Shown one piece after another: positions 19,213-37,399 of a stretch of 64,000 nt of DNA. This DNA is from Aquibaculum arenosum. GTDB taxonomy: Bacteria > Pseudomonadota > Alphaproteobacteria > Kiloniellales > DSM-21159. The notes below the pieces were generated by a model, which saw only the letters and a program-made list of their open reading frames with translations, made no database searches and had not been told where the DNA came from. The DNA lies in NCBI RefSeq assembly GCF_029222965.1, contig NZ_JARHUD010000004.1:248001-312000 (forward strand), in the 5' to 3' direction. Position 1 is the stretch's first letter. Each line of letters begins with the position of its first letter. The translations under genes were made by a program, and so were the position numbers.

Positions 19213-19227
19213 GGCGCTAGCGCTGCC

Positions 19228-19770: not shown

Positions 19771-19839
19771 CGCTCCTCGCTTTTAGGGAAAGTGTCGGCG
19801 ACACGCACTGCCGTGCCGCCGACCACTGCAGAACCTGCT

Positions 19840-19971
19840 AGGGCGGATCACGTTTGATCTGTAACGCGCAGCGTTCAGAACAAACGCGTCAATCCGCTCT
19901 GAATCAAGAGTGTAGTGCAGATTCACGCTTCAAATCGCGTCGCTTCGCGAACCCGTTTTGAGGCGATCTGC
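19840..19971. repeat. Two palindromic elements between dctP-like and dctQ-like genes
   Basis: Element 1 (19840-19900) has imperfect arms starting AGGGCGGAT and ending AATCCGCTCT around an inner hairpin AACGC-GCA-GCGTT. Element 2 (19917-19971) has imperfect arms GCAGATTCACGC... and ...AGGCGATCTGC and begins 1 base after the dctP-like stop. On the minus strand both carry AGAGC(G/A)GAT. The same core appears in the element at 54301-54380, so these belong to one interspersed repeat family. Inside an operon such hairpins commonly stabilise the upstream message. Confidence 0.7.
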
Positions 19972-19972
19972 T

Positions 19973-20968: not shown

Positions 20969-21044
20969 GACCGTCGAAGCTCCCTTGTTCCTGTTGGACG
21001 ACTTTTGAACGAGTGGAAAACGCAACCAGAAAGGAGGGTGTGAT

Positions 21045-22769: not shown

Positions 22770-24856
22770 GGCGCGATCTCGATCATCAGGTTGAGAGCGT
22801 CGTCGACGCGAGCGGTGTCACCCGGATAAACGAGGGTGGTGGCATCGAACTGGTCGATGACGGCAGGGCCGGGGATGATGCAGCCGGGGGCCAGCGCCTC
22901 GCGACGGTAGACCGGGGTGTCGTGCGAGTCTGCTTCATCGAACCAGACCGGCCGCCGCTCGACTGGCTCTGGGTGCAGGCTGGCTCCTTCCGGCGCAGAG
23001 GGAGCCCGTGGGGGCGGTAGCGCACCAAGGGCTGTCAGGCGCAGGTTGATCACCTCCACCGGATCCTCGGGATTGAAGAACCCATAGCTGCTTTCGTGCT
23101 CCTCGAAGAAGAGCTGCCGCAAGGCCTTCGCCTCGGGCAGGCGGGGCGCCGCGACGTCGACGTCGACGGGAACGCGCAATTCGAAATTCTGCCCTTCATA
23201 ACGCATGTCGAGGCTCACCTGGAGCAGTCGTGCCTCAACGGGTATCTCTTCCTGTTCAAACCATGGCTGTGCTTCGGCAGCGAGCTCCTCGAGGAGTGTC
23301 TGCAGCTCTGGCAGGCTGTCATCCACGACGGGCAGCCGCCGGCTGCGCACGAGATCTTCCTTGATGTCGGCGACGACCAGACCCTGGGCACAGAGGATGC
23401 CCGGGGCGAGCGGCACCAGGATTTCGTGGATCCCCAGGGCGCGTGCCACCGCGTTGGCATGAAGGGGGCCCGCTCCACCGAACGGCATCAAGGTGAACTG
23501 GCGCGGGTCGTGTCCGCGCTCGACCGAGATCGCCCGAATTGCCCGAACCATGTTGGCCGTCACGATTCCGAGCACGCCCTGAGCCGTTTTCTCGATGGAG
23601 AAGCCAAGTCGTTCCGCGATCGGTGCCGTGACGGCGCGGGAGGCAGCCACATCGAGCGACATCGATCCGCCAAGCAATCCGCGGGCGGAGAGACGTCCAA
23701 GCACGACGTTGGCGTCAGTCACCGTGAGTTGATCGCCGCCACGGCGGTAGCAGGCAGGGCCGGGGTCCGCCCCGGCGCTCAAGGGGCCGACCTTCAGCAG
23801 ACCGTCGCGCTCGAACCACGCAATCGAGCCGCCGCCGGCGCCGACCGTGTTGATATCGACCATGGGGAGGCGCACCGGGAAGCCGGCAACCTCACGATCG
23901 AAGGCGAGGCCTGCTTCGCAGTTCCGGATCAGGGCGACGTCCGCGCTTGTCCCTCCCATGTCGAGCGTGATGACATTGGGCCTCTGAGACTGGCGCGCGG
24001 TATGAATTGCCGCCATCACCCCGGCGGCTGGGCCGGACAGTGCGGTACGGATGGGAAAGCTGCGCGCCCGCGCAATCGACATCAGGCCACCGCTGGACTG
24101 GTTGATGCCGACGCGCGCCTTTGGCGTCAGTTCTGCCAACTCCTGCTCAAGGTGGCTCATATAGCCGGCGAAGATTGGCTGCAGGTAGGTGTTGAGGAGC
24201 GCGGTGGAGAAGCGCTCATACTCCCGGAACTCGGGCTGAACCTCGCTGGACAGGGAAACTGCGAGGGTCGGAAGGCGTTCTCTCAGCCAGGTCCCGATAC
24301 GCTCTTCGTGCGCAGGATTGATGTAGGAGAAGAGCAGGCATACCGCGCAGGCTTCTGCCTTGATCGCGGTGAGCGCTTGCGCAATCTCTTCCAGCTCCGT
24401 CTCATCGAGCGGCGTTATGATCTGTCCTTCCGGACCGACCCGCTCCGTGATCTCGAAACGATGCTCGCGCTTGGCCAGTGGAGCCGGGTAATCCGCCTTT
24501 AAGTCATACATTCGGGGGCGGACCTGACGCCCGATTTCCAGCAGATCACGAAAGCCGCGCGTGGTTATCACGGCCACCGTTCCACCTTTTCGCTGAATCA
24601 GGGCGTTTGTCGCGACCGTTGTGCCGTGCGCCAGGTTGGTTACCGCAGACAAGGGCAGCGCTTTGGATGCGCCCATATCCCGCAAGCCGGAAACAATCGC
24701 CTTGGCGGGATTGTCAGGGGTGGAAGGCGTCTTGTGCAGCTGAATCGTGCCGGTGGCCCTGTCGAAGCCATAGAAATCGGTAAAAGTTCCGCCGACGTCG
24801 ACGCCCACTATCCAGCCGGAGCCAGCATCCGATGCCTGCTTGATCCCGTCCGCCAT
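22766..24856 (-). CDS. Hydantoinase A / oxoprolinase family subunit
   Basis: Alpha subunit, 696 residues, with an ASKHA-type ATP site at the N-terminus (WIVGVDVGGTFTDFYGFD) and a second phosphate motif ITLDMGGTSADVALI. GAGGGSIAW and PFGGAGPLHA are further family signatures. Together with the B subunit it hydrolyses a cyclic amide such as a hydantoin or 5-oxoproline at the cost of ATP; an acetone-carboxylase-like role is possible but the third subunit is absent. The ATG at 24856 is preceded by AAGGGC and removes a 32-residue extension that would run into the operator. It is divergent from a GntR gene, with a palindromic operator 40 bases upstream. Confidence 0.92.
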   Translation of the reverse strand: MADGIKQASDAGSGWIVGVDVGGTFTDFYGFDRATGTIQLHKTPSTPDNPAKAIVSGLRDMGASKALPLSAVTNLAHGTTVATNALIQRKGGTVAVITTRGFRDLLEIGRQVRPRMYDLKADYPAPLAKREHRFEITERVGPEGQIITPLDETELEEIAQALTAIKAEACAVCLLFSYINPAHEERIGTWLRERLPTLAVSLSSEVQPEFREYERFSTALLNTYLQPIFAGYMSHLEQELAELTPKARVGINQSSGGLMSIARARSFPIRTALSGPAAGVMAAIHTARQSQRPNVITLDMGGTSADVALIRNCEAGLAFDREVAGFPVRLPMVDINTVGAGGGSIAWFERDGLLKVGPLSAGADPGPACYRRGGDQLTVTDANVVLGRLSARGLLGGSMSLDVAASRAVTAPIAERLGFSIEKTAQGVLGIVTANMVRAIRAISVERGHDPRQFTLMPFGGAGPLHANAVARALGIHEILVPLAPGILCAQGLVVADIKEDLVRSRRLPVVDDSLPELQTLLEELAAEAQPWFEQEEIPVEARLLQVSLDMRYEGQNFELRVPVDVDVAAPRLPEAKALRQLFFEEHESSYGFFNPEDPVEVINLRLTALGALPPPRAPSAPEGASLHPEPVERRPVWFDEADSHDTPVYRREALAPGCIIPGPAVIDQFDATTLVYPGDTARVDDALNLMIEIAP

Positions 24857-24895
24857 CTGCCCTTGGCCTTTCCCTGTGTCCTCAGAGGCAATACG

Positions 24896-24912
24896 GTATA
24901 CGTGACGTATAC
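24896..24912. promoter_or_regulatory. GntR-type operator between hyuA-like gene and its regulator
   Basis: GTATACG-TGA-CGTATAC is a perfect inverted repeat (7-base arms, 3-base centre) in the divergent gap. It has the size and GTAT...ATAC symmetry of FCD-GntR sites. It lies 40 bases from the hyuA ATG and 97 from the gntR ATG, placed to control both. Confidence 0.75.
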
Positions 24913-25008
24913 ACGGCGTCAAGCAGGTGCCGCGCGATGCGATCTGCACCATCCATCGCGGGACAGAGGCGTGTCGAATGGGCTAGAGACAACCTGGTGA
25001 AATGAGAC

Positions 25009-25731
25009 ATGGCAGCAGCAAAAGTGCATGACTTGACCAACGGGAGTGGCAGGCAGAGAGCCTATACGGAGATACGCGCCCGCATCTTGCGCCTGGAGTT
25101 TTCTCCCGGTGCGGAATTGGAGGAAGGAGCGCTTTGCACCTTGCTCGGCCTCTCGCGCACGCCCATCCGCGAGGCGCTCATCCGGCTGGCGTCAGAAGGG
25201 CTCGTCGTATTGCAACGCGGTCGCGGCGCCCGGGTTGCCCCGCTGGACATCAGCAACCTGCGGACCTTCTTTGAGGCACTCGACCTCTTGCAACGCGCGG
25301 TCAGCCGCTTGGCGGCCCTCCGACGCACAGGGGAGGATCTGGCGGCGATCGAGCCCCACATCCAGGCCTTCGAGGAAAGCGGAAAGCGGGTCGAGAGCCT
25401 GGATATGGCCGAGTCCAACTATCGCTTCCACATGGCAATCGCCGTGGCCGCTCACAGCGAGTACCTGGAGCGGTCCTACAGCCGCGTCATGACAGAAGGC
25501 CTGCGTGTCGCACGGGTTTGCTTCAGCGAGGAGAACGACAGGGAGGCTCCGCCCCTGAGCGCGCATGTGGACCGCACAACCTCGGAGCATCACGCGCTCT
25601 ACAACGCGCTACTACAACAGGATGCCGACGAGGCAGAGCGACTTGCAGCAGAACACACTATCCTCTTCCGCAATCGGGTCGCCCAGACCCTGATCCCGAT
25701 TGACGGCTTGCTCTCACATCTGCGCGTATGA
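25009..25731 (+). CDS. GntR-family regulator, FCD domain
   Basis: DNA-binding regulator of 240 residues. The winged helix (about 15-80) shows LGLSRTPIREALIRLASEGLV, the GntR recognition segment. The helical FCD ligand domain follows (about 90-225), with metal/ligand-type residues in NYRFHMAIA and a late SEHHALYNAL. It is transcribed away from the hyuAB-TRAP operon across a perfect palindrome and so is the likely local repressor, released by the substrate or a product. Confidence 0.9.
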   Translation: MAAAKVHDLTNGSGRQRAYTEIRARILRLEFSPGAELEEGALCTLLGLSRTPIREALIRLASEGLVVLQRGRGARVAPLDISNLRTFFEALDLLQRAVSRLAALRRTGEDLAAIEPHIQAFEESGKRVESLDMAESNYRFHMAIAVAAHSEYLERSYSRVMTEGLRVARVCFSEENDREAPPLSAHVDRTTSEHHALYNALLQQDADEAERLAAEHTILFRNRVAQTLIPIDGLLSHLRV

Positions 25732-26057: not shown

Positions 26058-27056
26058 ATGCGTGACATCAATTTGAGAGCCACCGAGTACTTTGAGGCTG
26101 TGGCGCGTTTGGGAACCGTGACCAAGGCTGCGGCGGAACTGGCCGTGTCTCCCTCGGCGGTCAGTCAACAGATCCGCATTCTTGAAGAGCAATTTGGCGT
26201 GCGCCTGTTTCGGCGGGAAAAGCGCAGGCTCGTGCTGACCTTGGATGGCGACCGCCTGTTCCAGACCACCACTCAGGCGTTCAGGGCAATCCGCAACGCG
26301 CGCAGCGCTATATCGCTGCAGAGAAACGTGCGCACTCTCGTCATTCGGGTCAGCCCCAGCTTCGGAGTACGCTGGCTGGGCCCGCGCATTGCCGACTTCG
26401 CAGCACAAAATCGTGACTGGAACATCCGGATAGATGCCACGCCGGATTTCACGGCCTTTGAAACGGAATCTGTCGATTTCGATCTACGCTACGGCCTGGG
26501 CGGTTGGGCAGGGCTTACAGTCAATAAGGTCATGAATGACCTGGTCTTGCCGCTTTGCAGTCCCGACTATCTTGCGCAGCTTCGAACTGTTTCTGACGAT
26601 CCCGTTGAGCAGTTGCGCGCCGCGCGTCTGATCGACAGCGTAAAGATGCTCTACCGCTGGGATATATGGCTGGCGGCACATCGGGTCGAAGTCGCCAACC
26701 TCAGCTACCCCTTTCGTTTCGATCGCTCTTCCATGTCCATCGAACTCGCCAAACAGGGGGGCGGATTGGCGCTCGACAGCGTCACGCTCTGTTTGCCTGA
26801 GCTTCAGCGGGGAGAACTGGTGCCTTTTTCGACTGAGTTTGAAGTGATCGACTTCCCGGCCTACTGGCTCGTCTGTCCGCCCCGGCATTTCAACCGGCGC
26901 ATTGTGGGCCGCTTTGCCGATTGGTTGGCGGAGGTGGCCAGCAGCCATGATGCAGCAGCGCGCCGCCTGCTGGTGGATCTTGGCTGCCGTTTCCGTCCGG
27001 AAAGTGGGCCGAGCGGGCCGGAGTCCGAGGAGGGCGCCGAGACGGAGACAGGCTGA
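26058..27056 (+). CDS. LysR-family transcriptional regulator (GcvA-like)
   Basis: LysR-type regulator of 332 residues. The N-terminal helix-turn-helix reads YFEAVARLGTVTKAAAELAV then SPSAVSQQIRILEEQFG, and the effector domain (about 90-300) has the periplasmic-binding fold. The order SPSAVSQQI and the VRLFRR ending resemble the GcvA subgroup. The C-terminal 25 residues are Glu/Gly/Ser-rich and probably disordered. It converges on the TRAP/transketolase operon (24 bases between stops) rather than diverging from it, so a regulatory link to that operon is plausible but not shown. Confidence 0.9.
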   Translation: MRDINLRATEYFEAVARLGTVTKAAAELAVSPSAVSQQIRILEEQFGVRLFRREKRRLVLTLDGDRLFQTTTQAFRAIRNARSAISLQRNVRTLVIRVSPSFGVRWLGPRIADFAAQNRDWNIRIDATPDFTAFETESVDFDLRYGLGGWAGLTVNKVMNDLVLPLCSPDYLAQLRTVSDDPVEQLRAARLIDSVKMLYRWDIWLAAHRVEVANLSYPFRFDRSSMSIELAKQGGGLALDSVTLCLPELQRGELVPFSTEFEVIDFPAYWLVCPPRHFNRRIVGRFADWLAEVASSHDAAARRLLVDLGCRFRPESGPSGPESEEGAETETG

Positions 27057-27080: not shown

Positions 27081-28337
27081 TCAATAGATAGTGAGCGCTG
27101 GAACGTAGGAGATGAGCGCCAGGACCACCAGGGCCACCAAATAGAAGGGAATCAGCGCCTTTACCGTTTCCCCGATCTTGGCGCCGGAGATTGCGGCTGA
27201 GATGAACAAGGTTGTTCCAACGGGCGGCGTGAAGAGACCGATCGACAGGTTCACCACCATTATAAGTCCCAACTGCACCGGGTCGAGCCCGATCGCCTGC
27301 GCGATGGTCACGAACAGAGGCCCGAGCAGGAGGACGGCGGCGGGCAGATCGAGGAATGCCCCCACGATGATCATCGCGATGTTGAGCGCGAGGATGACCA
27401 TCCAGGGCTCCGAAAAGCTCGCCTGCACCCACATGGCAAGCTCCTGCGGCACCCGTTCGGCGGTCAACAACCACTGCACGGTGGAGGAGGCCATGATGAT
27501 GATCATGACCGCCCCGGTCATCAGGGCTGTATCCACCGAAGCGGACCAGATGCCGCGCCAAGTGAGGTCGCGGTAGATAAGGCCGCTGATTGCCAGGGCG
27601 TAGGCAACAGCAAGCACACTGACTTCCGTCGGCGTGGCCAGCCCGAATCGCAACGTCCCGATGATGAAGACCGGCATCAACAGCGCGGGTATGGCCGACA
27701 GGATCTGCGGTTTGAACGCCCGAAACCCGCCTTCCAATGGAGAGCGTGGCAGGTTGCGCACCTGGGCCACGACAGCGACGGCCAGCAGCAATCCCAGGCC
27801 CAGAAGAAGTCCCGGAAGGATCCCAGCGATGAAAAGGTTGACGATGGAAACGTTGGAGATCAGGCCGTAAAGGATCAGCGGGATGGACGGTGGAATCAGC
27901 ACCGAAACGGACGCTGAGGAGGCCGTTATCGCGGATGCGAAGGCTCGGGGGTAGCCCTGTTTGATCTGCACCGGGATGAGCGCGTTGCCCAATGCCGAAG
28001 CGTCCGCAACTGCCGATCCGGAAACGCCGCCAAACATCACCGATCCCATGATGGAAACGTGTCCCAGGCCACCCTTGAGACGCCCGACGATCAATCGTGC
28101 AATGTTCACGAGGTAGACGCCAAACTTGCCCGACATCATGAGGTTGCCCGCCAGAATGAAGAAGGGAATGGCGAGCATGGGGAAGCTTTGCGTGGGCGTG
28201 TATAGGCGCTGGGCGATGGCCGCCATCGGCTTCCCATCCAGCCAAAGCGCGACGGCGACGCCTCCAAGCATGGCGTGGGCTACCGGCACCGCGATCACCA
28301 GAAGCAGGAAGAACACCAGAACGAAGGGCGCAGTCAT
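27081..28337 (-). CDS. TRAP transporter large permease subunit (DctM-like), second system
   Basis: Twelve-helix permease of 418 residues. Family signatures are FFILAGNLMMSGKFG, GGVSGSAVADASALGNALIP, SVLIPPSIPLILYG and LFTPPVGTTLFISAAI. It is complete and is the last gene of the transketolase operon, 9 bases after the dctQ-like gene. Sequence divergence from the first DctM copy in this window is large, so the two systems did not arise by recent duplication and probably carry different substrates. Confidence 0.94.
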   Translation of the reverse strand: MTAPFVLVFFLLLVIAVPVAHAMLGGVAVALWLDGKPMAAIAQRLYTPTQSFPMLAIPFFILAGNLMMSGKFGVYLVNIARLIVGRLKGGLGHVSIMGSVMFGGVSGSAVADASALGNALIPVQIKQGYPRAFASAITASSASVSVLIPPSIPLILYGLISNVSIVNLFIAGILPGLLLGLGLLLAVAVVAQVRNLPRSPLEGGFRAFKPQILSAIPALLMPVFIIGTLRFGLATPTEVSVLAVAYALAISGLIYRDLTWRGIWSASVDTALMTGAVMIIIMASSTVQWLLTAERVPQELAMWVQASFSEPWMVILALNIAMIIVGAFLDLPAAVLLLGPLFVTIAQAIGLDPVQLGLIMVVNLSIGLFTPPVGTTLFISAAISGAKIGETVKALIPFYLVALVVLALISYVPALTIY

Positions 28338-28346
28338 GATGGCCTC

Positions 28347-28916
28347 TTAACTCAGGCTTGCTTCGGGGGTCTGGCTCGCAGGCGGCTTGCCCGCGAGAAT
28401 CTGCAGGATATCAAGGCCAGCGATCACCGCCATGGCGCCGAAGGCATAGGCGAGGCTCGAGTAGCCCCAGACCTGCTTGATCCCGAGTGTGGCGAGAGTC
28501 TGGAATGTGGATGCCTTCAGGATCGGCTGGCTCGACCAGAGGATGCTGAGCGAGATGACGAGGATTGCCGCCTGAATGATCAGAACAAGAACCGACAGCG
28601 CGCGACCGGTCAGCAGGTTCGACAGTAGGCTCACCGCGACGTGACGCCCGCGCGCCGTGGCGATGACGATGCCGCCGGCCACCAGCCAGGGCAACAGGAT
28701 GGCATGGATTTCGTAGGCCCAGGTTATGCCCGAGCCCAGCGTATAGCGAAGGACAACGTTGACGAACAGGGCTGCAAACATGACGCCGAGACAGACCACG
28801 GCGATGAGACGGCCACTCCAGTCGAGAGCCGAGACCAGTCCCTCAGCCACGGCGAGGAAGAGGCCTTTCGGCCTCTTCCCGCCTTCCTGTCGGCTGTCAT
28901 CGGAGCCGAAGGACAT
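28347..28916 (-). CDS. TRAP transporter small permease subunit (DctQ-like), second system
   Basis: Membrane subunit of 189 residues with four hydrophobic segments (about 35-55, 68-88, 105-130, 150-170) and a charged N-terminal tail of about 20 residues. VNVVLRYTLGSGITWAYEI after helix 1 is typical of DctQ. Its ATG overlaps the stop of the dctP-like gene by one base (TAATG), giving translational coupling. Confidence 0.9.
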   Translation of the reverse strand: MSFGSDDSRQEGGKRPKGLFLAVAEGLVSALDWSGRLIAVVCLGVMFAALFVNVVLRYTLGSGITWAYEIHAILLPWLVAGGIVIATARGRHVAVSLLSNLLTGRALSVLVLIIQAAILVISLSILWSSQPILKASTFQTLATLGIKQVWGYSSLAYAFGAMAVIAGLDILQILAGKPPASQTPEASLS

Positions 28917-29881
28917 TAGTGACCCGCCGCTTCCCGAAGGGCTGCGACCAGTTCCGGATAACGCTCGGCGTAGGCGTCATACACAGCCTGCGTAGCCGAC
29001 TGATAGGCTGCCTTGTCGGCTTCGGCAAAGATGGCGCCTTCTTCCTCCATCTTCGGCCGCAGCTCCTCGTCCGCTGCCAGAGACAGACTCCGCTGCAACT
29101 CACCGGCCTCTGCCGTCGCCTGCAGAGCGCAGTTCTGCGTCGCCTCATCGAGGCCGGACCACCAGGCCAGCCCGGCAGCAACTGGCGTGGCTTCGTACAT
29201 GTGACCGGTCAGGGTGATGTAGGGCGTGATCTCGTGGAGGTTCGCCGTATAGATATTGGTAAGCGGGTTTTCCTGACCATCGAAGACGCCCGACTGCAGG
29301 GCGGAAGGAACCTCGGACCAGGCAAGCGGCGCCGGAGATGCACCCAGCTCCTCAAAGATCGCGATCGCCATTTCACCCGGTGGGGTGCGGATCTTCATGC
29401 CGGCCAGATCGGCAGGCTCGGAGACGTGCTTGTTCAGATGGGTGACATTGCGGATGCCGTTGTCCCAGTAGCCGAGGATCTTCAGGCCGGCACTCTGGGC
29501 GCGCTCATCGATCATGGCGCCCACGTCACCGTCGAGCACCTCCCAGGCAGTCGGCAGATCCTCGAACAGGAAGGGCAAACCAAGCAGACCGATCTCCGGA
29601 ACCATCTGGCTCATGGCGCCCTGGCTGTTGGCAGTGATGTGAATTACCCCCGCAGAGGCGGAGGTCAGCATTTCCGAGTCATCGCCCAGCGTGGCTGAGG
29701 CGGCGACATTGACCGTATGGGCGCCTTCGCTGCAGGCGGTAAAGATTTCTGCCCACTCTTCCGCAGCGACGTAGCGCGGGTTGCCCGGGTTCTCGCCGTG
29801 CGCAAAAATCACTTCCTCGGCCTGAGCAGCGCCGGCCAGGATGGTGGTTGATGCCAAAACGGCCCAAAGCGACGTCTTCAT
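28916..29881 (-). CDS. TRAP transporter substrate-binding protein (DctP-like), second system
   Basis: Periplasmic receptor of 321 residues. The ATG at 29881 follows a purine-rich AGGAGAGGAAAC site and begins a signal peptide (SLWAVLASTTILAGAAQAEE). The mature sequence has the DctP core, including LAGMKIRTPPGEM with the ligand-binding Arg and SGVFDGQENPLTNI with the second-lobe contact. It sits between the SDR gene and its permease genes. The neighbouring transketolase and SDR suggest a hydroxylated acid or sugar-acid ligand (inference). Confidence 0.94.
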   Translation of the reverse strand: MKTSLWAVLASTTILAGAAQAEEVIFAHGENPGNPRYVAAEEWAEIFTACSEGAHTVNVAASATLGDDSEMLTSASAGVIHITANSQGAMSQMVPEIGLLGLPFLFEDLPTAWEVLDGDVGAMIDERAQSAGLKILGYWDNGIRNVTHLNKHVSEPADLAGMKIRTPPGEMAIAIFEELGASPAPLAWSEVPSALQSGVFDGQENPLTNIYTANLHEITPYITLTGHMYEATPVAAGLAWWSGLDEATQNCALQATAEAGELQRSLSLAADEELRPKMEEEGAIFAEADKAAYQSATQAVYDAYAERYPELVAALREAAGH

Positions 29882-29949
29882 AGTGTTTCCTCTCCTATTT
29901 TTGAGCAACAAGTACAAGCGGCGCCTTTTGCCGTGGCGCCGCCGGCATA

Positions 29950-30702
29950 TCAGTGGATCAGGGATCCACCGTTCACATCGACCTCGGTTCCTGTGCAGTA
30001 GGCTGACAGATCCGAGCCGAGAAAGAGAGCGCAACCTGCCACATCTGAAGCTGCGCCAGCCCGACCCATGGGAATGTCGGCCAGAATTTGCTCGTGCATT
30101 TCCGGGGTGAGTTTCCCGGCAGTGATGTCAGTCGCGATAAAGCCGGGACAGATCGCGTTCACGCGGACATTGTCCGGCGCCAGTTCGCGCGCCATGGCCT
30201 TCGTGAGGCCAAGCACTCCAGCCTTGGCAGCGGAGTAATGCGGGCCGCCAAAGATGCCACCGCCGCGCTGGGCGGAAACGGACGACAGATTGACGATACT
30301 GCCGTACTTGCGTGCCCGCATGCCAGGCACCACCGCTTGGCTCATGTAAAGCGTGCCACGCAGGTTCACGTCGAGAACGGCCTCGTAGTTCTCTGGAGCG
30401 ATCTCCATGAACTTCAGGGGCTGGGTGATCCCGGCGTTGTTGACGAGCACGTCGATGCGTCCCCATTCGCCTTCGAGATCTCGGGCAGCTGCTTCGCAAG
30501 CCGCCTTGTCGGTGACGTCGCAGGCTAGGCCTCGGTGCCCCTCACCCAAATCAGCAGCGGCGGCTTCGGCTGCCGCGGCATCGAGGTCGAGGATGGCGAC
30601 GGTCGCGCCCTGCTCGGCAAAGAGCTGCGCTGTTGCCTTGCCCAGACCACGCGCGCTCGCCGCGCCAGTCACAATTACAAACTTATTGTCCATCAGGCCC
30701 AT
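29950..30702 (-). CDS. SDR-family NAD(P)-dependent oxidoreductase
   Basis: Short-chain dehydrogenase of 250 residues. The nucleotide motif is TGAASARGLGKATA, followed by DLDAAAAEAAA (an acidic residue favouring NAD), NNAG, and the catalytic Ser/Tyr/Lys set with YSAAKAG. The C-terminal GTEVDVNGGSLIH is classic SDR. FabG-like by sequence, but its place between transketolase subunits and a TRAP transporter points to catabolism: it probably oxidises a polyol or hydroxyacid to the keto compound used by the transketolase. It lies 45 bases after the transketolase C-subunit. Confidence 0.92.
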   Translation of the reverse strand: MGLMDNKFVIVTGAASARGLGKATAQLFAEQGATVAILDLDAAAAEAAAADLGEGHRGLACDVTDKAACEAAARDLEGEWGRIDVLVNNAGITQPLKFMEIAPENYEAVLDVNLRGTLYMSQAVVPGMRARKYGSIVNLSSVSAQRGGGIFGGPHYSAAKAGVLGLTKAMARELAPDNVRVNAICPGFIATDITAGKLTPEMHEQILADIPMGRAGAASDVAGCALFLGSDLSAYCTGTEVDVNGGSLIH

Positions 30703-30747
30703 GGCCGACTGTCTCCGCTTCGTTGAATGCGTCGGATCATGCTGAGG

Positions 30748-31791
30748 TCAGAGCCAACTTTTGATCTGTTCGATTACCCGATCCACACTCAGTCCATACA
30801 TTTCGTGGAGTGTCGGCAGGGCTCCTGCTTCCAGGAACTGGTCCGGCAGGCCGATCATGTGGAATGAAGGTGTGACGCGGTTCGTGAGCAGGGTGCTGGC
30901 CACGGCTTCTCCAAGACCTCCCACGACGCTGTGATTTTCTGCCGTGACGACCAGCCGCCCCTCCTTGCGGGCTTCGGCCAGGATCGTCTCGATGTCGAGA
31001 GGTTTGATGGTCGGCACGTGCAGCACGGCGGCTTCGATCCGATCTGCCGCGAGCCGTTCGGCTGCATCGAGCGCGCGCATGGTCATGAAGCCGGTGGAGA
31101 TGATGAGGACGTCCTGGCCGTCTCGGATCACTTGTGCTTTGCCCAGCTGAAACTTGTAGTCTGGCTTATGACGGGTCAGGACCGAAGGAACCTTGCCGCG
31201 CAGGAGGCGGGAGTAGACCGGCCCGTCGTGCGCGGCGATCTGCGGCACCATGCCCATGATGTCGTCCGCATCACAGGGGTCGATGATCGTCATGTTGGGC
31301 AGACCGCGGAAGATCGCCAGGTCCTCCGTCGCCTGATGGCTGGGGCCATATCCGGTGGTCAGGCCCGGGAGCGCGCAGACGATCTTAACCGGGAGGTTTT
31401 CCTCCGCGATGGCCATGGCGATGAAGTCATAGGCCCGCCGCGCTGCGAAGACGGCATAGGTGGTGGCGAATGGGTTGAAGCCCTCGCGCGCAAGCCCGGC
31501 CGCGGCCGACATCAGGAGCTGCTCGGCCATCCCCATCTGGTGGAAGCGATCAGGCATGGCTCGAGCAAAGATGTGCAGATCAGTGTACTTCGCCAGGTCC
31601 GCGCTCAGGCCGACGATCTTCTCGTCCTTGCGCGCCATTTCCACCAAAGCGTGACCGAAGGGCGCGGCGACGGTGTCGTAGCCTTCCGCAGAGAGGGAGG
31701 CGATCATCGCCGAGGTGGCGATCGGCTTGCCGTCTGGACCCAGTTTGACCCGGCGCGGCTCGTACTTGCGCTTCATCGATGCGAGAGTCAT
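30748..31791 (-). CDS. Transketolase-like C-terminal subunit (Pyr and C domains)
   Basis: Second half of a split transketolase, 347 residues. GMAEQLLMSAAAGLA carries the Glu that activates TPP. The pyrimidine-binding domain is about 45-210, and the C-terminal domain with ISTGFMTMRALDAAERL follows. The ATG at 31791 is chosen by the GGGGAAGC site and by its 4-base overlap with the N-subunit gene. Split transketolases next to transporters usually serve a specialised pathway rather than the pentose phosphate cycle. The acceptor and donor here are unknown. Confidence 0.92.
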   Translation of the reverse strand: MTLASMKRKYEPRRVKLGPDGKPIATSAMIASLSAEGYDTVAAPFGHALVEMARKDEKIVGLSADLAKYTDLHIFARAMPDRFHQMGMAEQLLMSAAAGLAREGFNPFATTYAVFAARRAYDFIAMAIAEENLPVKIVCALPGLTTGYGPSHQATEDLAIFRGLPNMTIIDPCDADDIMGMVPQIAAHDGPVYSRLLRGKVPSVLTRHKPDYKFQLGKAQVIRDGQDVLIISTGFMTMRALDAAERLAADRIEAAVLHVPTIKPLDIETILAEARKEGRLVVTAENHSVVGGLGEAVASTLLTNRVTPSFHMIGLPDQFLEAGALPTLHEMYGLSVDRVIEQIKSWL

Positions 31792-32639
31792 AGCGGCTTC
31801 CCCTTCTCCAGCACCGCAAGCGCCTTGGCCCACTCGTCAGGCTCGACGCGTACGAAGTGGGTGATCTCTCGGCTCTCCAGGAAATCGACGCCCTTGCACA
31901 TGGTGGTGTCGAAGATGATCACGCGGGGGCCCGGGTGGTCCGTTTCCCGGGCTGCATCGAAGGCGGCGACGACGGCTTCCAGGTCATTGCCGTCCACGCG
32001 CTGGGCATGCCAGCCGAAGGCTTCCCACTTCTTCGCTTCCTCGCCCTGTGCCAACGCGTCGGTCGGCTTGCCGTCGGCCTGCTGGTTGTTGAAGTCCACG
32101 AGGCAGATCAGGTTGTCCAGTTTCCACTGGACCGCCGACATCACAGCTTCCCAGGTCGAGCCTTCTCCCAACTCGCCGTCGGACATGAGGTTATAGACGA
32201 AGGCCGGGCTCTGCTTGCGCTTGAGCCCCAATGCCATACCCACGGCGACGCCCAGTCCATGACCCAGCGAACCGCCGGTGATCTCCATGCCGGGGGTATA
32301 GGATGCCATGCCGGACATGGGCATCCGACTGTCATCCATGCCGTAGGTCTCGTACTCCTCTTCCGGCAGGATGCCGGCTTCCATAAGCACGGCGTAGAGC
32401 GCGATTGCGTAGTGGCCGATCGAGAGCAGAAAGCGGTCACGCCCCTCCCACTCGGGATCTTCCGCTCGGTACTCCAAGGCGTGGAAATAGCTGGCGGCGA
32501 GAACATCGGCTATGCCGAGGGCTTGGCCGATGTAGCCTTGGCCCTGAACCTCACCCATAAGAAGTGCCTTGCGGCGAATGTTCCACGCTCGCAGCTCGAG
32601 CGATACGTTGGATGCCGCGCTGGCGCGCCCTGCTGGCAT
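31788..32639 (-). CDS. Transketolase-like N-terminal subunit (TPP-binding)
   Basis: First half of the split enzyme, 283 residues. The TPP/metal-binding motif is seen as SDGELGEGSTWEA followed by DFNNQQADG (GDG...NN type). The substrate-pocket His stretch GGSLGHGLGVAVGMALG precedes it. The ATG at 32639 has AGGGAG upstream. It is the first gene of a six-gene leftward operon: two transketolase subunits, SDR, and dctP, dctQ and dctM homologues. Two palindromes upstream are likely control sites. Confidence 0.93.
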   Translation of the reverse strand: MPAGRASAASNVSLELRAWNIRRKALLMGEVQGQGYIGQALGIADVLAASYFHALEYRAEDPEWEGRDRFLLSIGHYAIALYAVLMEAGILPEEEYETYGMDDSRMPMSGMASYTPGMEITGGSLGHGLGVAVGMALGLKRKQSPAFVYNLMSDGELGEGSTWEAVMSAVQWKLDNLICLVDFNNQQADGKPTDALAQGEEAKKWEAFGWHAQRVDGNDLEAVVAAFDAARETDHPGPRVIIFDTTMCKGVDFLESREITHFVRVEPDEWAKALAVLEKGKPL

Positions 32640-32700: not shown

Positions 32701-32745
32701 AGAAATTTATTATTTCTTTCAGGGTTTGTTAGGTGAGCTAACAAA
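32701..32745. promoter_or_regulatory. Twin palindromes upstream of the transketolase operon
   Basis: AGAAAT-TTATT-ATTTCT (32701-32717) and TTTGTTAG-GTGAG-CTAACAAA (32725-32745) are both perfect inverted repeats with 5-base centres, 62-106 bases before the N-subunit ATG. The AT-rich first one may overlap the -10 region and the second is the better operator candidate. The regulator is not identified; the GntR and LysR genes in the block are candidates. Confidence 0.65.
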
Positions 32746-32895: not shown

Positions 32896-33585
32896 TCACC
32901 CCGCCGCCTTTCCAGGCTCCCTCTCCCCCACCGCGGCCTCACCTTTTGGCGCCGCATAGTCGAGATGCGGTCGCAACGCGCGCATTTTGGCAGCCAGCTC
33001 CCGGGCGGCGGTCGAGGGCTGCTTGGCGAGGTGATTGGCGACCGCAACGTGGTCCGCATCGGGCTTGTGGTGGTTCAGTTTGGATTGCCCTTCTATACGA
33101 TCGACAGCGATCTCGACCACCCGAATGCCGTTCAGCATGGTCTCGCGCTTGCCAGGCTCCATGGAGCTGAGTGACCAGGGCGCCTTCGGCAGGCGCGCTT
33201 CGGCAACGGCAAGGAGGTCGTCGCCGTGGTTGCGGTTGTCCGTCAGGGGGCGCTGGCTGGCGACGCCAGACAGATGCACCGCTTCGTAGAGCCAAGTAGA
33301 GACCTGATCGGCGGAAACGTACCAGTCGTTGGAGACGTAAGAATCGCCACCTGTCACGGCCAGCAGGAAGCGACGCCGGCCGTCGGCCAGGGCGATCAAG
33401 GGGTTCTGGGCCGTGAAGTGCATCTGCGCGACCACGCCATGCGCCTCTTCGCGGAGCACAAAGGGAACATGCGAGCCGACCGGGCCGTCGGGCCCGGCTG
33501 TAACCACCAGGCCGAAGCCCCGCTCAGCGGCAAACGCGAGCGCCGCCTGTTCTTCCATCCGGAAGGCTGGACGAACGATGTGCAT
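32896..33585 (-). CDS. PaiB-like FMN-binding protein
   Basis: Product of 229 residues from the ATG at 33585, which gives the usual short N-terminus before the flavin-reductase-like split barrel. Resembles the PaiB/FMN-binding negative regulator family: FGLVVTAGPDGPVGSHVPF, NDWYVSADQVSTWLYEAVH and SQRPLTDNRNH. In Bacillus, PaiB affects sporulation and protease genes, but in proteobacteria the role is unknown and a flavin-dependent enzyme role is equally possible. It is last in the leftward dehydrogenase operon, after a 199-base gap, so membership of that operon is uncertain. Confidence 0.85.
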   Translation of the reverse strand: MHIVRPAFRMEEQAALAFAAERGFGLVVTAGPDGPVGSHVPFVLREEAHGVVAQMHFTAQNPLIALADGRRRFLLAVTGGDSYVSNDWYVSADQVSTWLYEAVHLSGVASQRPLTDNRNHGDDLLAVAEARLPKAPWSLSSMEPGKRETMLNGIRVVEIAVDRIEGQSKLNHHKPDADHVAVANHLAKQPSTAARELAAKMRALRPHLDYAAPKGEAAVGEREPGKAAG

Positions 33586-33784
33586 GAGTCTCGGTGCTCC
33601 GCTTTCTTGGTCCAGTCCAGCCATAGCATCGAACGGCGTGAGGGTCGAAGCCGAGCGCCGATGCCGCCGACATCTCCAAGTACATCATCCAGGGCTTCCA
33701 GTCTGGCGGCTTGTGCTCGCAAAGCTGCCAACCTGAGTCAGTGCCATTGCCATCAACGGGGAATCAGCGCGGTTTTGCCTTTGG

Positions 33785-34633
33785 TTATCGTGCAGACATG
33801 AGCTCAAGCAGCCTTGCCCCAAGCGCGCTGTTTCTATCCCCAAGTTCGAGCAGGATGTTCATGTGGTTGCAGCCTGGCAGGGCCAGAAGCTCCGCCGGTT
33901 GCCCTTGTGCAGCGAGCCTGTCGTGCAGGGCGCCAGCTTGTTCGTGGAAGGGCGGCGTTTCTTCGGCGCCATAGGCGATGATGCGGTGCGGTCCCTCATG
34001 CTGTTTAGCGTCGAGTGGTGACCAGGCGGCTGCTTCCTCGCGGCTCATCTCGGCCTCGTTCTTGAGGAAGCTGTCGGGAATGCCCGAGAGGTCGTAGATC
34101 CCACTGAGCAGCAGCAGACCCTTGAGATGGGGCAGGGCAGGTGTGACCTCCTCGACGCCGGTCGCCGCGAGATAGGAGGCAAGGTGAGCGCCGGCTGAGT
34201 GGCCGCTGACGGTGATGCGTTCCGCTGCGGCACCCAGTTCCGCCGCGTGGTTTTGCAGCCAGAGCAGTGCGCGCCGGACCTGATCGACCAGGGTTGGGAG
34301 TCGCTGCCCCGGCATAAGGTCATATTCCACCAGCGCGGCTATCCCGCCGGCAGCCAGCACCGGTTCGGCGACGAAGCGGTAGTCCGCCTTTTCGCCCGAG
34401 CGCCAATAGCCGCCGTGTACGAAGACATGCAGCGGTGCGTCGCTGGGAGAGGTCTCGGGAAAGATGATGTCCAGCGTCTCACGTGGACGACTGCCATAGG
34501 CGATGTCGCTGCGCATCGTCGCGTGGCGCTCGAGGGCGCGGCTGCGCGCCGAGAATTCGGCGGCGATCTCGTCGAACTCAGGTACGAAATCGCGAATGCG
34601 GTACAAGTCGGTTTTGGTCACATGGCCCCCCAA
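33785..34633 (-). CDS. Alpha/beta hydrolase, kynurenine-formamidase-like
   Basis: Esterase-type hydrolase of 282 residues. The oxyanion motif is HGGYWRSG, the nucleophile elbow GHSAGAHLASY and the catalytic His in GCNHMNIL. The acid position appears to be Glu (YGAEETPPF), as in several arylformamidase-like proteins. In the context of an alcohol, aldehyde and lactate-type dehydrogenase operon it may open a lactone or ester of the pathway substrate (inference). It follows the aldehyde dehydrogenase by 58 bases. Confidence 0.87.
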   Translation of the reverse strand: MGGHVTKTDLYRIRDFVPEFDEIAAEFSARSRALERHATMRSDIAYGSRPRETLDIIFPETSPSDAPLHVFVHGGYWRSGEKADYRFVAEPVLAAGGIAALVEYDLMPGQRLPTLVDQVRRALLWLQNHAAELGAAAERITVSGHSAGAHLASYLAATGVEEVTPALPHLKGLLLLSGIYDLSGIPDSFLKNEAEMSREEAAAWSPLDAKQHEGPHRIIAYGAEETPPFHEQAGALHDRLAAQGQPAELLALPGCNHMNILLELGDRNSALGARLLELMSAR

Positions 34634-34691
34634 AAGATGTAAGCGGTCTCGGCACGGCCAGCGGAATTGGCGCTCGACCGTGCCGCCCGCG

Positions 34692-36155
34692 CTAAAACTC
34701 TACAGCGTAGTACTTGGCTTCCACAAACTCCTGAATGCCCGTCACGCCGCCCTCGCGGCCGATACCGCTTTGCTTGACCCCACCGAAAGGCGCGGCGGGG
34801 TCGGACATCAAGCCGCGATTGATGCCGAGCATGCCGCTGTCGATCCGGCTGCCGACACGCATCGCGCGCCCGAGATCCTGGCTGTAGACATAGGCGGCGA
34901 GGCCGTAGTCGGTGTTGTTTGCAAGGCGGATGGCCTCCCCCTCGGTCTCGAAGCGGTAGATCGGCGCGACCGGCCCGAAGATTTCCTCGCTGGCGATGGC
35001 GGCATCGACCGGCACGTTCTCCAGAACCGTTGGCGGATAGAAATACCCGCTGCCGGGCAGCGGCGCGCCGCCGGTCGTCGCCCGCGCACCAAGGGCGATG
35101 GCGTCCCCGACCAGCCGGTTGATCTTCTCCACCGCCTTTGGGGTGATCATCGGTCCGCACTGGGTCTCCGGATCATAACCTGCACCGATTTTCAGAGCTG
35201 CCATACGCTCTGTGAGACCCGCGACAAAGGCGTCGTGAATGCCGGCCTGCACGTAGAAACGATTGGCCGCGGTGCAGGCCTCGCCCGCGTTGCGCATCTT
35301 GGCGACCATCGCACCATCAAGCGCGGCCTCGAGATCCGCATCGTCGAAAACAAGGAAGGGCGCATTGCCCCCAAGCTCCATCGAGCAACTCACCACCGTC
35401 TTTGCCGCCTCCGCAAGCAACAGACGGCCCACCCCGGTGGACCCGGTGAAGGAGAGTTTGCGCACCCGCGGATCGGCAAGCACGGCGCTGGTGACGGGCC
35501 CGGGACTGGTGGTGGTCAGCACATTAACGACCCCTGGGGGCACGCCGGCCTCTTCGCCCAGACGCGCCATGGCATAGGCTGTCAGCGGCGTTTCCGAGGC
35601 GGGCTTCAGGATGACGGTGCAGCCTGCCGCCAGCGCGGGCCCGATCTTGCGCGTGGCCATGGCTGCCGGGAAGTTCCAGGGCGTGATCAGCAGCGAGATG
35701 CCAATGGGTTCGTGATCAACCAGAATCTGGTGCGAGCCCGAGGGCGTATGCCTGTACTCCCCGGGAAGGCGGGTGGCCTCCTCCGCGTACCAGCGGAAGA
35801 ACTCGGCCGCATAGGCGACCTCGCCGCACGCATCAGAAAGGGCCTTGCCGTTCTCAAGCGAGATCAAAGTGGCAAGCTCTTCGGCGTGCTCGCTCATCAA
35901 CTGGAACCAGCGGCGCAGGATTTCGGAGCGTTGCCGGGGCGCGGTCGCGCGCCAGCCGGACGCGGCAGCCTCGGCCGCGTCGACGGCGCGAAGTGCGTCC
36001 TCAACCGAGGCGTCCGGCACGTCGGCCAGACTGTCGCCGCTTGAGGGATCGACGACGGCGATGCCGGAACCCTTTTCCCACTTGCCGCCGATATAGAGCC
36101 CCTGGGCGTGCAGGGAAGGATCGGCATAGCCGGATGTTCTTGTCTTTATTGTCAT
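34692..36155 (-). CDS. NAD(P)-dependent aldehyde dehydrogenase (succinate-semialdehyde dehydrogenase-like)
   Basis: ALDH-superfamily enzyme of 487 residues. Seen are LLITPWNFPAAMATRKI, the NAD-loop FTGSTGVGRLL, the general-base Glu in MELGGNAPFLV, and the nucleophile in NAGEACTAANRF. Closest in style to GabD-type succinate-semialdehyde dehydrogenases, but glycolaldehyde or lactaldehyde oxidation is common in the same group. It lies 19 bases after the iron alcohol dehydrogenase gene, suggesting that it takes the aldehyde made by that enzyme. Confidence 0.93.
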   Translation of the reverse strand: MTIKTRTSGYADPSLHAQGLYIGGKWEKGSGIAVVDPSSGDSLADVPDASVEDALRAVDAAEAAASGWRATAPRQRSEILRRWFQLMSEHAEELATLISLENGKALSDACGEVAYAAEFFRWYAEEATRLPGEYRHTPSGSHQILVDHEPIGISLLITPWNFPAAMATRKIGPALAAGCTVILKPASETPLTAYAMARLGEEAGVPPGVVNVLTTTSPGPVTSAVLADPRVRKLSFTGSTGVGRLLLAEAAKTVVSCSMELGGNAPFLVFDDADLEAALDGAMVAKMRNAGEACTAANRFYVQAGIHDAFVAGLTERMAALKIGAGYDPETQCGPMITPKAVEKINRLVGDAIALGARATTGGAPLPGSGYFYPPTVLENVPVDAAIASEEIFGPVAPIYRFETEGEAIRLANNTDYGLAAYVYSQDLGRAMRVGSRIDSGMLGINRGLMSDPAAPFGGVKQSGIGREGGVTGIQEFVEAKYYAVEF

Positions 36156-36174
36156 TATTCCGGACCTCTGGAAA

Positions 36175-37374
36175 TCAGTTGAGCAGTGAGACGTCGCCGC
36201 TGTAGGCGGCGGCGACCAGCCTGCGCATGTCGGGCTGGGGCAGAGGGCGCGGGTTGTTTTCGATCAGCCGTGCGATGCCGCAGCTCTGTTCGGCGACCCA
36301 GTCGACGCGGTTTTCCTCGAGGCCCAGTTCGCGCAACGTCGTGGGAATGCCGATGCGGGCGAATAAGGCCGCGATGGCGGGAATCACCTCCTCTGCGCTG
36401 CCAAGTCCGGTAACCGCGGCGATTTCGGCGAGCTCGGGCGTGATCTCAGGCGCATTCCATCTCATGACATAGGGCATGAGACAGGCCACCCCGGCTCCGT
36501 GGGCCGTGTGGGTGAGGGCGCCCACGGGGTATTGGATGGCGTGGGCTGCGGCGGTGCCGGCGACGCCGAAGGCAAGCCCTGCCAGGGTGGCGCCCATCAT
36601 CACCTTCTCCCGGGCGGCGGCGTCGGCGCCGTTCGTGCAGGCGGCTTCCAGACCCTGCCACAGCAGGGAGATGGCTCTGAGCGCGAAATGATCCGAGAAG
36701 GCGTTCTTGCCGACGAAAACGCGCTCCTGTGCGATGCCGGGGACCGCTTCACGGCGTACGGCGGTGAAAGCTTCAAGCGCGTGTGTCATCGCATCCGCGC
36801 CGGCGATCGCGGTCAGGCTCGGCGGGCAGGTGAGTGTCAGGTCGGGATCGCAGATCGAGGTCGCCGGAATGATATAGGGGCTCGAGATGCCGACCTTGAG
36901 GTTGCGCTCGCTGTCGGAGAGCACCGCCACCGGGGTGACCTCCGAACCCGTGCCGGCGGTGGTGGGAACGGCGATGATCGGCATCACCGCGCCTGGGACG
37001 TTATACTCGCCGAAATAGTCTTGCGGCTTGCCGCCGTGGGTCAGCAGAACGGCAACGGCCTTCGCCATGTCGAGACAGGACCCGCCACCGACACCGATAA
37101 CCAGATCCGGCGAGAAGTCGCGCGCGGCGCCCGCGCTGGCGAGAGCCGCCTCGACCGGGACGTCCGGAGGCGTCGAGCCGTCGACCCGCACTGCAAGGCC
37201 CGCCTTCTCGAGCTGCGCCACCATGTCCTGGAACTGCGCATCCGCCACCAGCCGAGCATCGGTTATGACGAGTGCTCGCTCGCCAAACTTCTTGGCAATC
37301 CTGCCCAAGGACCGTCGTTGGCCCGAACCGAAAACCAGTTCACCCGGGGCCCGGATGGTGCCGAATAGGGTCAT
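36175..37374 (-). CDS. Iron-containing alcohol dehydrogenase (group III)
   Basis: Fe-dependent NAD(P) alcohol dehydrogenase, 399 residues. The dinucleotide motif is GVGGGSCLDMAKA and the metal ligands are in ADAMTHALEAF (Asp, His), AHAIQYPVGALTH (His) and TAHGAGVACLMP (His). The start at 37374 is preferred because GGAAGG lies 10 bases upstream; an ATG at 37392 is possible. Family members include 1,2-propanediol/lactaldehyde oxidoreductase and 4-hydroxybutyrate dehydrogenase, both of which would suit the next-door ALDH. Confidence 0.93.
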   Translation of the reverse strand: MTLFGTIRAPGELVFGSGQRRSLGRIAKKFGERALVITDARLVADAQFQDMVAQLEKAGLAVRVDGSTPPDVPVEAALASAGAARDFSPDLVIGVGGGSCLDMAKAVAVLLTHGGKPQDYFGEYNVPGAVMPIIAVPTTAGTGSEVTPVAVLSDSERNLKVGISSPYIIPATSICDPDLTLTCPPSLTAIAGADAMTHALEAFTAVRREAVPGIAQERVFVGKNAFSDHFALRAISLLWQGLEAACTNGADAAAREKVMMGATLAGLAFGVAGTAAAHAIQYPVGALTHTAHGAGVACLMPYVMRWNAPEITPELAEIAAVTGLGSAEEVIPAIAALFARIGIPTTLRELGLEENRVDWVAEQSCGIARLIENNPRPLPQPDMRRLVAAAYSGDVSLLN

Positions 37375-37399
37375 CTCATTTTTTCCTTCCATCAAGAGT

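Follow-up and report, generated by a model that had tools for sequence, protein, structure and literature searches.

A split transketolase operon of Aquibaculum arenosum proposed to act in sugar-acid catabolism

Six tightly spaced leftward genes lie in a 64-kb stretch of the Aquibaculum arenosum genome (the window; bases 248001-312000 of contig 24, genome size 3.49 Mb). They encode the N and C parts of a two-subunit transketolase (TKN and TKC), a short-chain dehydrogenase (SDR) and a tripartite ATP-independent periplasmic (TRAP) transporter. We propose that they form a LysR-controlled catabolic operon in which an aldonic acid is imported and oxidised to a keto-aldonate, whose ketol unit is then moved by a specialised split transketolase, a proposal to which we give somewhat more credence than doubt. 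The preliminary description of this DNA had reported the six genes and suggested that a hydroxyacid or polyol is oxidised and then cleaved in a non-phosphorylated transketolase reaction. The gene content was confirmed at 27081-32639 (open reading frames and Pfam) and such a cleavage would still be the best fit; an aldonic acid has replaced the polyol as the likelier substrate.

We infer every chemical step, and the acceptor, as follows. The TRAP transporter (DctP, DctQ, DctM) would import the aldonic acid, and the NAD-type SDR would oxidise the secondary alcohol beside its terminal CH2OH; the product would be a keto-aldonate that bears no phosphate and ends in HOCH2-CO-CHOH-. With thiamine diphosphate (ThDP) as cofactor, the split transketolase would remove the two-carbon ketol unit and pass it to a host aldehyde, for which glyceraldehyde 3-phosphate, yielding xylulose 5-phosphate, is the natural candidate. 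The aldehyde-acid released would be glyoxylate from a four-carbon (C4) acid, tartronate semialdehyde from a C5 acid and tartrate semialdehyde from a C6 acid. This remainder would be finished by host enzymes or, in relatives, by operon neighbours (D-2-hydroxyacid dehydrogenase (D2HADH) with glycerate 2-kinase, or a HIBADH-type dehydrogenase). Non-phosphorylated cleavage is the best reading because the core is minimal (SDR and split transketolase), phosphate-binding positions are changed and the changes match laboratory variants of E. coli TktA. A sugar acid is more likely than a polyol because of a conserved DctP Arg pair and because galactonate-type transporters and lactonase-like, tetronate and glycerate genes occur in relatives.

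If correct, this would be an undescribed route of sugar-acid use, carried by a widespread and transferable bacterial gene set. It would give a function to a common catabolic module, add a reaction class (ketol transfer from an unphosphorylated keto-aldonate) and name proteins now labelled merely 'transketolase', 'glucose 1-dehydrogenase' and 'TRAP transporter'. No description of the gene set came up in searches of open-licence PMC literature, and a paper on catabolic gap-filling, in the excerpts of its main text, does not mention transketolase.

Active site of the split transketolase

The split enzyme is a member of the ThDP-dependent transketolase superfamily. Transketolase_N, Transket_pyr and Transketolase_C all score above Pfam gathering scores, and the ThDP and metal ligands D154 and N184 are present in 107 of 107 sequences, the first Gly of the GDG motif being Ser in 105. 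The equivalent of the catalytic Glu, TktA E411, is kept in 104 of 106 members of a wider set that includes sister families (one has Arg, one lacks the residue). The N subunit scores 193 bits with the transketolase model versus 28 with dxs; for the C subunit transketolase leads at 227 bits and dxs is second at 197.

Residues are numbered here as in E. coli TktA (MG1655). The 101 rows compared are that of the window and those of 100 other loci, two of the 102 having been dropped as short pieces (L028 and L058; L numbers denote loci of the comparison set) and the sister families not being included. Five positions are changed in every row: H26 to Tyr, H100 to Ser, and S385, F434 and D469 each to Tyr (Y36 and S109 of the window's TKN; Y69, Y112 and Y148 of its TKC), with a one-residue deletion directly before the last. 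H461 is Ala in 100 rows and Gly in one (Leu141 in two other alignments), never His. H66, H261, E411, H473 and R520 are unchanged throughout (H76 and H261 of TKN; E90, H152 and R198 of TKC). R358 falls in an alignment gap; its ungapped counterpart, residue 42, is Arg in one of 102 loci (L090; one locus lacks the residue). The active site reads as a pocket that would suit short unphosphorylated acids. D469 of transketolase is generally described as contacting the acceptor alpha-hydroxyl, and its loss would fit a product lacking that group, such as glyoxylate. The predicted structure of the C subunit (mean pLDDT 67) was too poor to support any claim.

Several of these changes have been made in the laboratory; PMC numbers here and below refer to excerpts of the papers. 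With propanal, TktA H26Y gives 88% and D469Y 68% of the R product, the wild type giving 58% S, and D469Y has 8-fold activity (PMC3657141). S385Y/D469T/R520Q was evolved from phosphorylated to non-phosphorylated (aromatic) aldehydes, and R520 of TktA may bind the 3-formylbenzoate carboxylate (PMC5073344, PMC10787763). By analogy, R520 is a possible carboxylate contact in the split enzyme. When D469T is combined with H100L in a TktA background that had been stabilised, pyruvate is accepted as donor (PMC10787763), and for R358I/H461S/R520Q a 55.3% gain in activity on 5-keto-D-gluconate, an unphosphorylated keto-aldonate, is cited (PMC12016104). By alignment, the split family naturally carries exactly H26Y, S385Y and D469Y, is changed at H100, at H461 and probably at R358, and keeps R520. 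Engineers reached the same Tyr substitutions at H26, S385 and D469 independently in E. coli transketolase, and the natural enzyme is a ready biocatalyst candidate.

Other split or specialised transketolases differ from this one. The sulfo-transketolase SqwGH likewise has two subunits and uses an unphosphorylated acidic ketose, moving a C2 unit to glyceraldehyde 3-phosphate (PMC11659671). The phosphate motif of SqwGH, RAFDR (PMC11659671), retains the first Arg; in the window family that position cannot be aligned and the remaining letters are Y, Y, A/L and R. SqwGH is partnered by an isomerase, the split enzyme here by an SDR. No sulfoquinovose isomerase or sulfo-gene was recognised among the named proteins of the window unit and its surroundings. 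Membership of SqwGH was rejected on motif letters and cluster genes, a separation by features described in the published excerpts. AptA/AptB of the D-apiose pathway (E. coli SE15; gene names from excerpts of PMC13001218) is likewise a split transketolase in a catabolic sugar cluster. It keeps H26, H66, H100, H261, E411 and H473, whereas the window family is changed at H26 and H100, and it has Thr at S385, Ala at F434, Tyr at D469 and Gly at R520. Membership of AptAB was rejected as well: identity is 31%, H26 and H100 differ, and the AptAB cluster has a kinase where the window unit has none. The preliminary description had set its split-transketolase reading against close kinship with the apulose-phosphate enzyme; the reading stands because that comparison gave only this identity and different letters at H26 and H100.

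Rif15a/Rif15b, likened here by description, is also a split transketolase from two overlapping genes with a non-standard substrate, and acts in antibiotic tailoring in Amycolatopsis (PMC6002545). Among solved structures, the split transketolase of Carboxydothermus hydrogenoformans (6yak, 6yaj; PMC7661550) is nearest in sequence to both subunits. It has the standard His and Asp where the window family is changed (HMMER alignments) and carries the phosphate motif RSFHR (PMC11659671). In the comparison set, L019, L020 and L021 belong to sister split-transketolase families sharing the GxGY signature, L019 and L021 at 39-46% identity over both subunits.

A stable core with exchangeable partners

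Genome contigs were scanned with 14 aligned N parts and 80 loci kept; together with 13 annotated plasmid loci these form a main set of 93 loci, which are related by descent and not independent. L035, a plasmid locus with the SDR and no annotated transketolase, was left out. A 105-locus set (tblastn) adds three loci of sister families and short loci from related genomes, some of them duplicates. Relatives of TKN are encoded by at least 571 of 596 pattern-matched genome stretches. Of 98 related genomes, the window's own counted, 13 match the C part at E 1e-60 or better; two of these carry a further, distant copy (47% identity) and one has a distant copy only (44%). Searching a plasmid collection gave 285 records with an N-part match (E 1e-30 or better) and 187 with an SDR match (1e-60). 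Among the hosts are plant-associated, marine and clinical genera.

The core consists of TKN, TKC, the SDR and usually the LysR gene, with transporters varying around it. An SDR at least 45% identical accompanies both transketolase subunits in 96 of the 105 loci (anywhere in the locus). A Sulfitobacter mobilizable plasmid carries TKN-TKC-SDR-DctPQM with a convergent LysR gene, its TKN being 88% identical to that of the window. This module (L022:5398-11892) adjoins an integrase and transposition genes of TniB/TniQ/Mu type, a sign of transfer. The unit of Pantoea and Acinetobacter comprises SDR, a major facilitator superfamily (MFS) transporter, TKN and TKC, with LysR adjoining. Since the arrangement recurs in relatives, the layout in the window is not a chance one.

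The transporter is a three-part TRAP system in the window, a fused-type TRAP system in Bosea and Azoarcus, and an MFS protein in Pantoea, Acinetobacter, Klebsiella and Paraburkholderia; a CUT2 ABC transporter occurs with a lactonase-like amidohydrolase in Aminobacter and others. The D-galactonate transporter subfamily is the best model for all four MFS proteins scanned, at 250-350 bits and below the cut-off of 395. Partner changes were counted by parsimony on a tree of 106 rows, taking partners within 6.5 kb at the 75 loci with long flanks; the tree was a quick one, weak in that 35 of 100 forks are open. Window-type TRAP (40 of 75 loci) requires 16 changes, second-type TRAP (12) five, CUT2 (6) four and MFS (2) two. 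Among enzymes the counts are 18 loci and four changes for a TIM-barrel protein with DhaKL, 18 and nine for HIBADH, 12 and nine for a full-length transketolase, 11 and three for a DXR-like (DRL) oxidoreductase, six and two for OtnK/OtnC, four and two for the lactonase-like protein, and three and three for D2HADH/glycerate kinase. Partners have been repeatedly gained or lost around a stable core.

Within the fetched flanks of the 93 loci, neighbours include HIBADH (25), full-length transketolase (20), the TIM-barrel protein (18), DhaKL (16), the lactonase-like amidohydrolase (9), OtnK (8), OtnI (6), OtnC (6), D2HADH (4) and glycerate kinase (4). These counts are approximate, coming from mechanical clusters of open reading frames with some shadow frames and some genes missed (D2HADH is annotated in L030 and L034). 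The preliminary description had remarked on the lack of a kinase or isomerase; this holds inside the six-gene unit of the window (Pfam-annotated reading frames) and fails for the family, with the isomerase-like TIM-barrel protein in 18 and the DhaKL kinase in 16 of 93 loci. Among 115 class-level genomes OtnK is found in 13 and the DhaKL family in 11, one over cut-off. OtnK (8/93) and DhaKL (16/93) lie roughly 10 kb or less from the split transketolase far more often than by chance, relatedness allowed for.

With curated models OtnK (L091) scores 532 bits (cut-off 350), OtnC (L063) 278 (250) and DhaKL 634 and 734 (492). Below their cut-offs are OtnI at 267 bits (325), the lactonase-like protein at 104 (400), and glycerate 2-kinase at 229 (550) and 2-hydroxyacid dehydrogenase at 330 (448), both scored on L045 and L055 proteins. 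Of seven HIBADH proteins scanned, six fit L-threonate dehydrogenase best, two over the cut-off of 350 bits and four at 296-314 below it (L064 and L096 score 399 and 400 with the LtnD model); the seventh is nearer tartronate semialdehyde reductase (156 bits, cut-off 397). The neighbours point mostly to sugar-acid routes, tetronate (C4) and glycerate (C3), and DhaKL to a hydroxymethyl ketone.

Two of the neighbours are less easily named. The TIM-barrel protein (271-272 residues; L095:12774-13592, L101:12713-13528) occurs with DhaKL in many loci; its L095 copy has no NCBIfam match at E 1e-3 and a weak PDB match only (Art22, 5.6e-7). The DRL oxidoreductase (Pfam PF21135) is divergent from TKN in L064 (8521-9861) and about 12 other Rhodobacterales-type loci. 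It may perhaps be of the uncharacterised DLO type (PMC3847144).

Substrate and competing explanations

By its sequence the SDR is a classical, NAD-type enzyme, with conservation of 98% or more at S141, Y156, K160 and D39 over 95 rows. It scores 177 bits with the gluconate 5-dehydrogenase model (cut-off 279), behind FabG-type models at 261. Its match to PDB 7krk, which we take to be from A. baumannii, was dropped as a substrate clue. Excerpts of a paper on an A. baumannii SDR call its substrate ambiguous and do not mention 7krk (PMC10889901). In DctP, R144 is present in 59 of 59 loci with a DctP match and R165 in 58. A profile of 23 DctPs matches 4p47, 4p9k, 4nq8, 7bbr, 4pdd and 4pdh best; we take 4p9k, 4pdd and 4pdh to be D-erythronate binders and 4nq8 a pantoate binder. 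When the predicted DctP model (pLDDT 86) was used for a fold search, numerous TRAP binding proteins came up at Z 35.6-40.5 and none stood out; one of them, at Z 39, is 7bbr, whose title names it sugar acid binding protein DctPAm.

Our best single guess, a tentative one, is a C4 acid cleaved as 3-oxo-tetronate to glyoxylate. The L-threonate/tetronate pathway (LtnD, OtnI, OtnK, OtnC) adjoins the split transketolase in some Rhodobacterales-type loci. It handles C4 acid sugars with a kinase and a decarboxylase and no transketolase, and its genes are absent from the window operon. The pathway presumably passes through 3-oxo-tetronate, which is a possible donor for the split transketolase.

Several findings weigh against the proposed pathway or its chain length. 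These are (i) the neighbours imply differing chain lengths, C4 for tetronate, a C3 product and so C5 for glycerate, and a dihydroxyacetone-type compound for DhaKL, and therefore the family may have several substrates; (ii) the genes upstream of the window operon offer no hint of the substrate, their homologues occurring in only 0-4 of the 93 loci; (iii) the phosphate motif is missing from AptAB too, in which D469 is likewise replaced by Tyr; (iv) OtnK and OtnC are already present elsewhere on the window's contig, which weakens the C4 choice; (v) the best match in the genome to the D2HADH of L084 is 39% identical, which weakens the C5 choice; and (vi) H100, changed here, is a site of the pyruvate-accepting TktA H100L/D469T variant, so that a donor without a C1 hydroxyl is possible. 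We take AptAB to use a phosphorylated substrate, apulose 4-phosphate, and loss of the motif alone is therefore weak proof; we did not accept it as proof of an unphosphorylated substrate. The genome's glycerate kinase is 55% identical to that of L045, and with OtnK/OtnC present and D2HADH distant the genome content settles neither chain length.

A C5 acid is placed closely behind the C4 acid and is likewise tentative. The SDR would give a 4-oxo-pentonate and the transketolase tartronate semialdehyde, which isomerisation or HIBADH-type reduction would take to glycerate and on to 2-phosphoglycerate. In its favour is L084, which carries on one strand TKN, TKC, SDR, D2HADH, glycerate 2-kinase, DctP, DctQ and DctM, followed by LysR and a full-length transketolase (the names D2HADH and glycerate 2-kinase there are taken from the L045 and L055 matches). 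D2HADH, glycerate kinase or the two together also occur in L045, L055, L059, L111 and L115, and the frequency of HIBADH-type genes near the core is in keeping with it. However, all but one of the scanned HIBADH proteins resemble L-threonate dehydrogenase best, OtnK, OtnC and OtnI are left unexplained, the D2HADH match in the genome is distant, and the nearest DctP profile matches include 4p9k, 4pdd, 4pdh and 4nq8, presumed binders of D-erythronate or pantoate (C4 chain).

The full-length transketolases beside the core suggest a broader scheme. In 19 of 20 such neighbours R358 is replaced by Ile, Val or Tyr, S385 by Pro or Ala, F434 by Tyr and D469 by Asn; these 19 keep H26, H100 and H461, and L080 alone is standard at all positions. 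These 19, L041:6653-8644 among them, make up a subfamily whose phosphate pocket is altered, and judging from these residues are probably specialised enzymes labelled as housekeeping ones. We regard it as rather doubtful that two specialised transketolases together strip sugar acids without kinases, in what would be the carboxylate equivalent of the sulfo-transketolase route. Each would take C2 from a keto-aldonate, 5-keto-hexonate giving a C4 acid and 3-oxo-tetronate giving glyoxylate. The window would carry the second half only, the neighbouring full-length transketolase of relatives being the other.

A branched C5 substrate is unlikely. Here a tertiary-alcohol ketol would be cleaved, either unphosphorylated apulose to dihydroxyacetone for DhaKL, or 3-oxo-isoapionate to hydroxypyruvate for D2HADH and glycerate kinase. 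That would account for DhaKL with the TIM-barrel protein (16 and 18 of 93 loci) and D2HADH with glycerate kinase together, and L064 has an OiaK-like kinase (416 bits, cut-off 700) and one clade the DRL oxidoreductase divergent to TKN. It leaves the best-conserved partner, the SDR, without a good role; the window family has lost H26 and H100, both present in AptAB, the known enzyme for apulose 4-phosphate; and the window has no apiose isomerase or kinase.

Improbable, too, is a C6 substrate, for which the SDR would be a hexonate 5-dehydrogenase and the transketolase would convert a 5-keto-aldonate to a four-carbon semialdehyde, as engineered TktA does with 5-keto-D-gluconate. The likeness to R358I/H461S/R520Q, in the excerpted account of that variant, extends to the lack of His at H461 and of an alignable R358, but R520 is kept. 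The gluconate 5-dehydrogenase score lends no support, and H26Y and D469Y would be expected to remove contacts to the extra hydroxyls of the donor. No tartrate-metabolism neighbour was recognised among the named clusters, no search having been aimed at such genes.

We give a similarly low probability to an acyl rather than a ketol transferase, which, like DXP synthase, would take a methyl ketone or 2-oxoacid as a donor with no hydroxyl at C1. The Ser at H100 in every row recalls the pyruvate-using H100L/D469T variant, as excerpted, dxs runs second to transketolase for the C subunit, and DXR-like genes adjoin one clade. But Ser could still hold a hydroxyl, the N subunit clearly prefers the transketolase model, the neighbours are polyhydroxy-acid enzymes, and DRL is mainly confined to that clade (11 of 75 loci, three changes). 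Least probable is a surplus but otherwise ordinary pentose-phosphate transketolase, set beside a TRAP transporter by chance: the superfamily is the same and the ThDP ligands are kept, but of R358, S385, H461 and R520 the split family keeps R520 alone, the phosphate pocket is changed in all its rows, the SDR and LysR are conserved alongside, and the full-length transketolase of the genome, 27% identical to the split enzyme, is standard at all twelve TktA positions checked. This enzyme, on contig 1, is the only other strong match to TKN in the genome (35% identity, E 6e-30), and a search with TKN found no second transketolase in the 64-kb window.

Operon layout, regulator and neighbouring genes

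TKN and TKC overlap by four bases (ATGA); 45 bases separate TKC from the SDR gene and 68 more the SDR gene from DctP. DctP and DctQ overlap by one base, with nine bases between DctQ and DctM. The TRAP transporter is complete in the window, with its three genes together (Pfam and curated models). Judging from the spacing, the six genes would be expressed as one unit. A scan for consensus promoters and terminators found sites no commoner than in shuffled sequence.

Table 1. Positions of the operon genes, the regulatory elements and adjacent gene groups in the window
Feature	Positions	Strand	Evidence or remark
TKN, transketolase N part, ThDP pyrophosphate-binding, 283 aa	31788-32639	-	Pfam Transketolase_N E 2e-36
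TKC, transketolase C part, pyrimidine-binding and C-terminal, 347 aa from ATG 31791	30748-31791	-	Transket_pyr 2.3e-31, Transketolase_C 1.5e-28
SDR, 250 aa	29950-30702	-	adh_short_C2 2.3e-69; 7krk match 311 bits
DctP, TRAP solute-binding protein, 321 aa	28916-29881	-	Pfam; R144, R165 conserved
DctQ, TRAP small permease	28347-28916	-	Pfam
DctM, TRAP large permease	27081-28337	-	Pfam
LysR-family (GcvA-like) regulator, convergent with DctM	26058-27056	+	Pfam and curated models; kept in relatives
LysR-type box TTAGCTCACCTAA, T-N11-A dyad	32729-32741	-	90-102 bases 5' of TKN start
GntR/FCD regulator	25009-25731	+	
Second TRAP operon	17902-24952	-	
Upstream co-directional genes	32896-38404	-	

A LysR gene, absent from the preliminary description as was the dyad upstream of TKN, lies 24 bases beyond DctM, converging on it, and is conserved with the operon in relatives. 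The LysR gene and the LysR-type box belong with the six-gene operon. Among 42 window-clade loci, 15 have the core pattern of the box, at -93 to -112; over all 101 loci it is found in 19, compared with 13 of 4040 random 250-mers, a contrast that is somewhat flattering as the pattern was drawn from the same upstream regions in which it was counted. A stricter pattern is found in 3 of 101 loci only, and the looser core was used for these counts.

Upstream of TKN a co-directional run encodes an FMN-binding protein, an esterase-like hydrolase, an SSADH-like aldehyde dehydrogenase and then further genes, among the run being an iron alcohol dehydrogenase and a gene of the malate/L-lactate dehydrogenase family. 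These were rejected as members of the system, homologues (E 1e-20) being found in 0, 1, 4, 2 and 0 of the 93 loci. On the other side of the LysR gene the window holds a second TRAP operon, with DctM, DctQ, DctP and hydantoinase B and A (oxoprolinase family), and a GntR/FCD regulator gene divergent from it.

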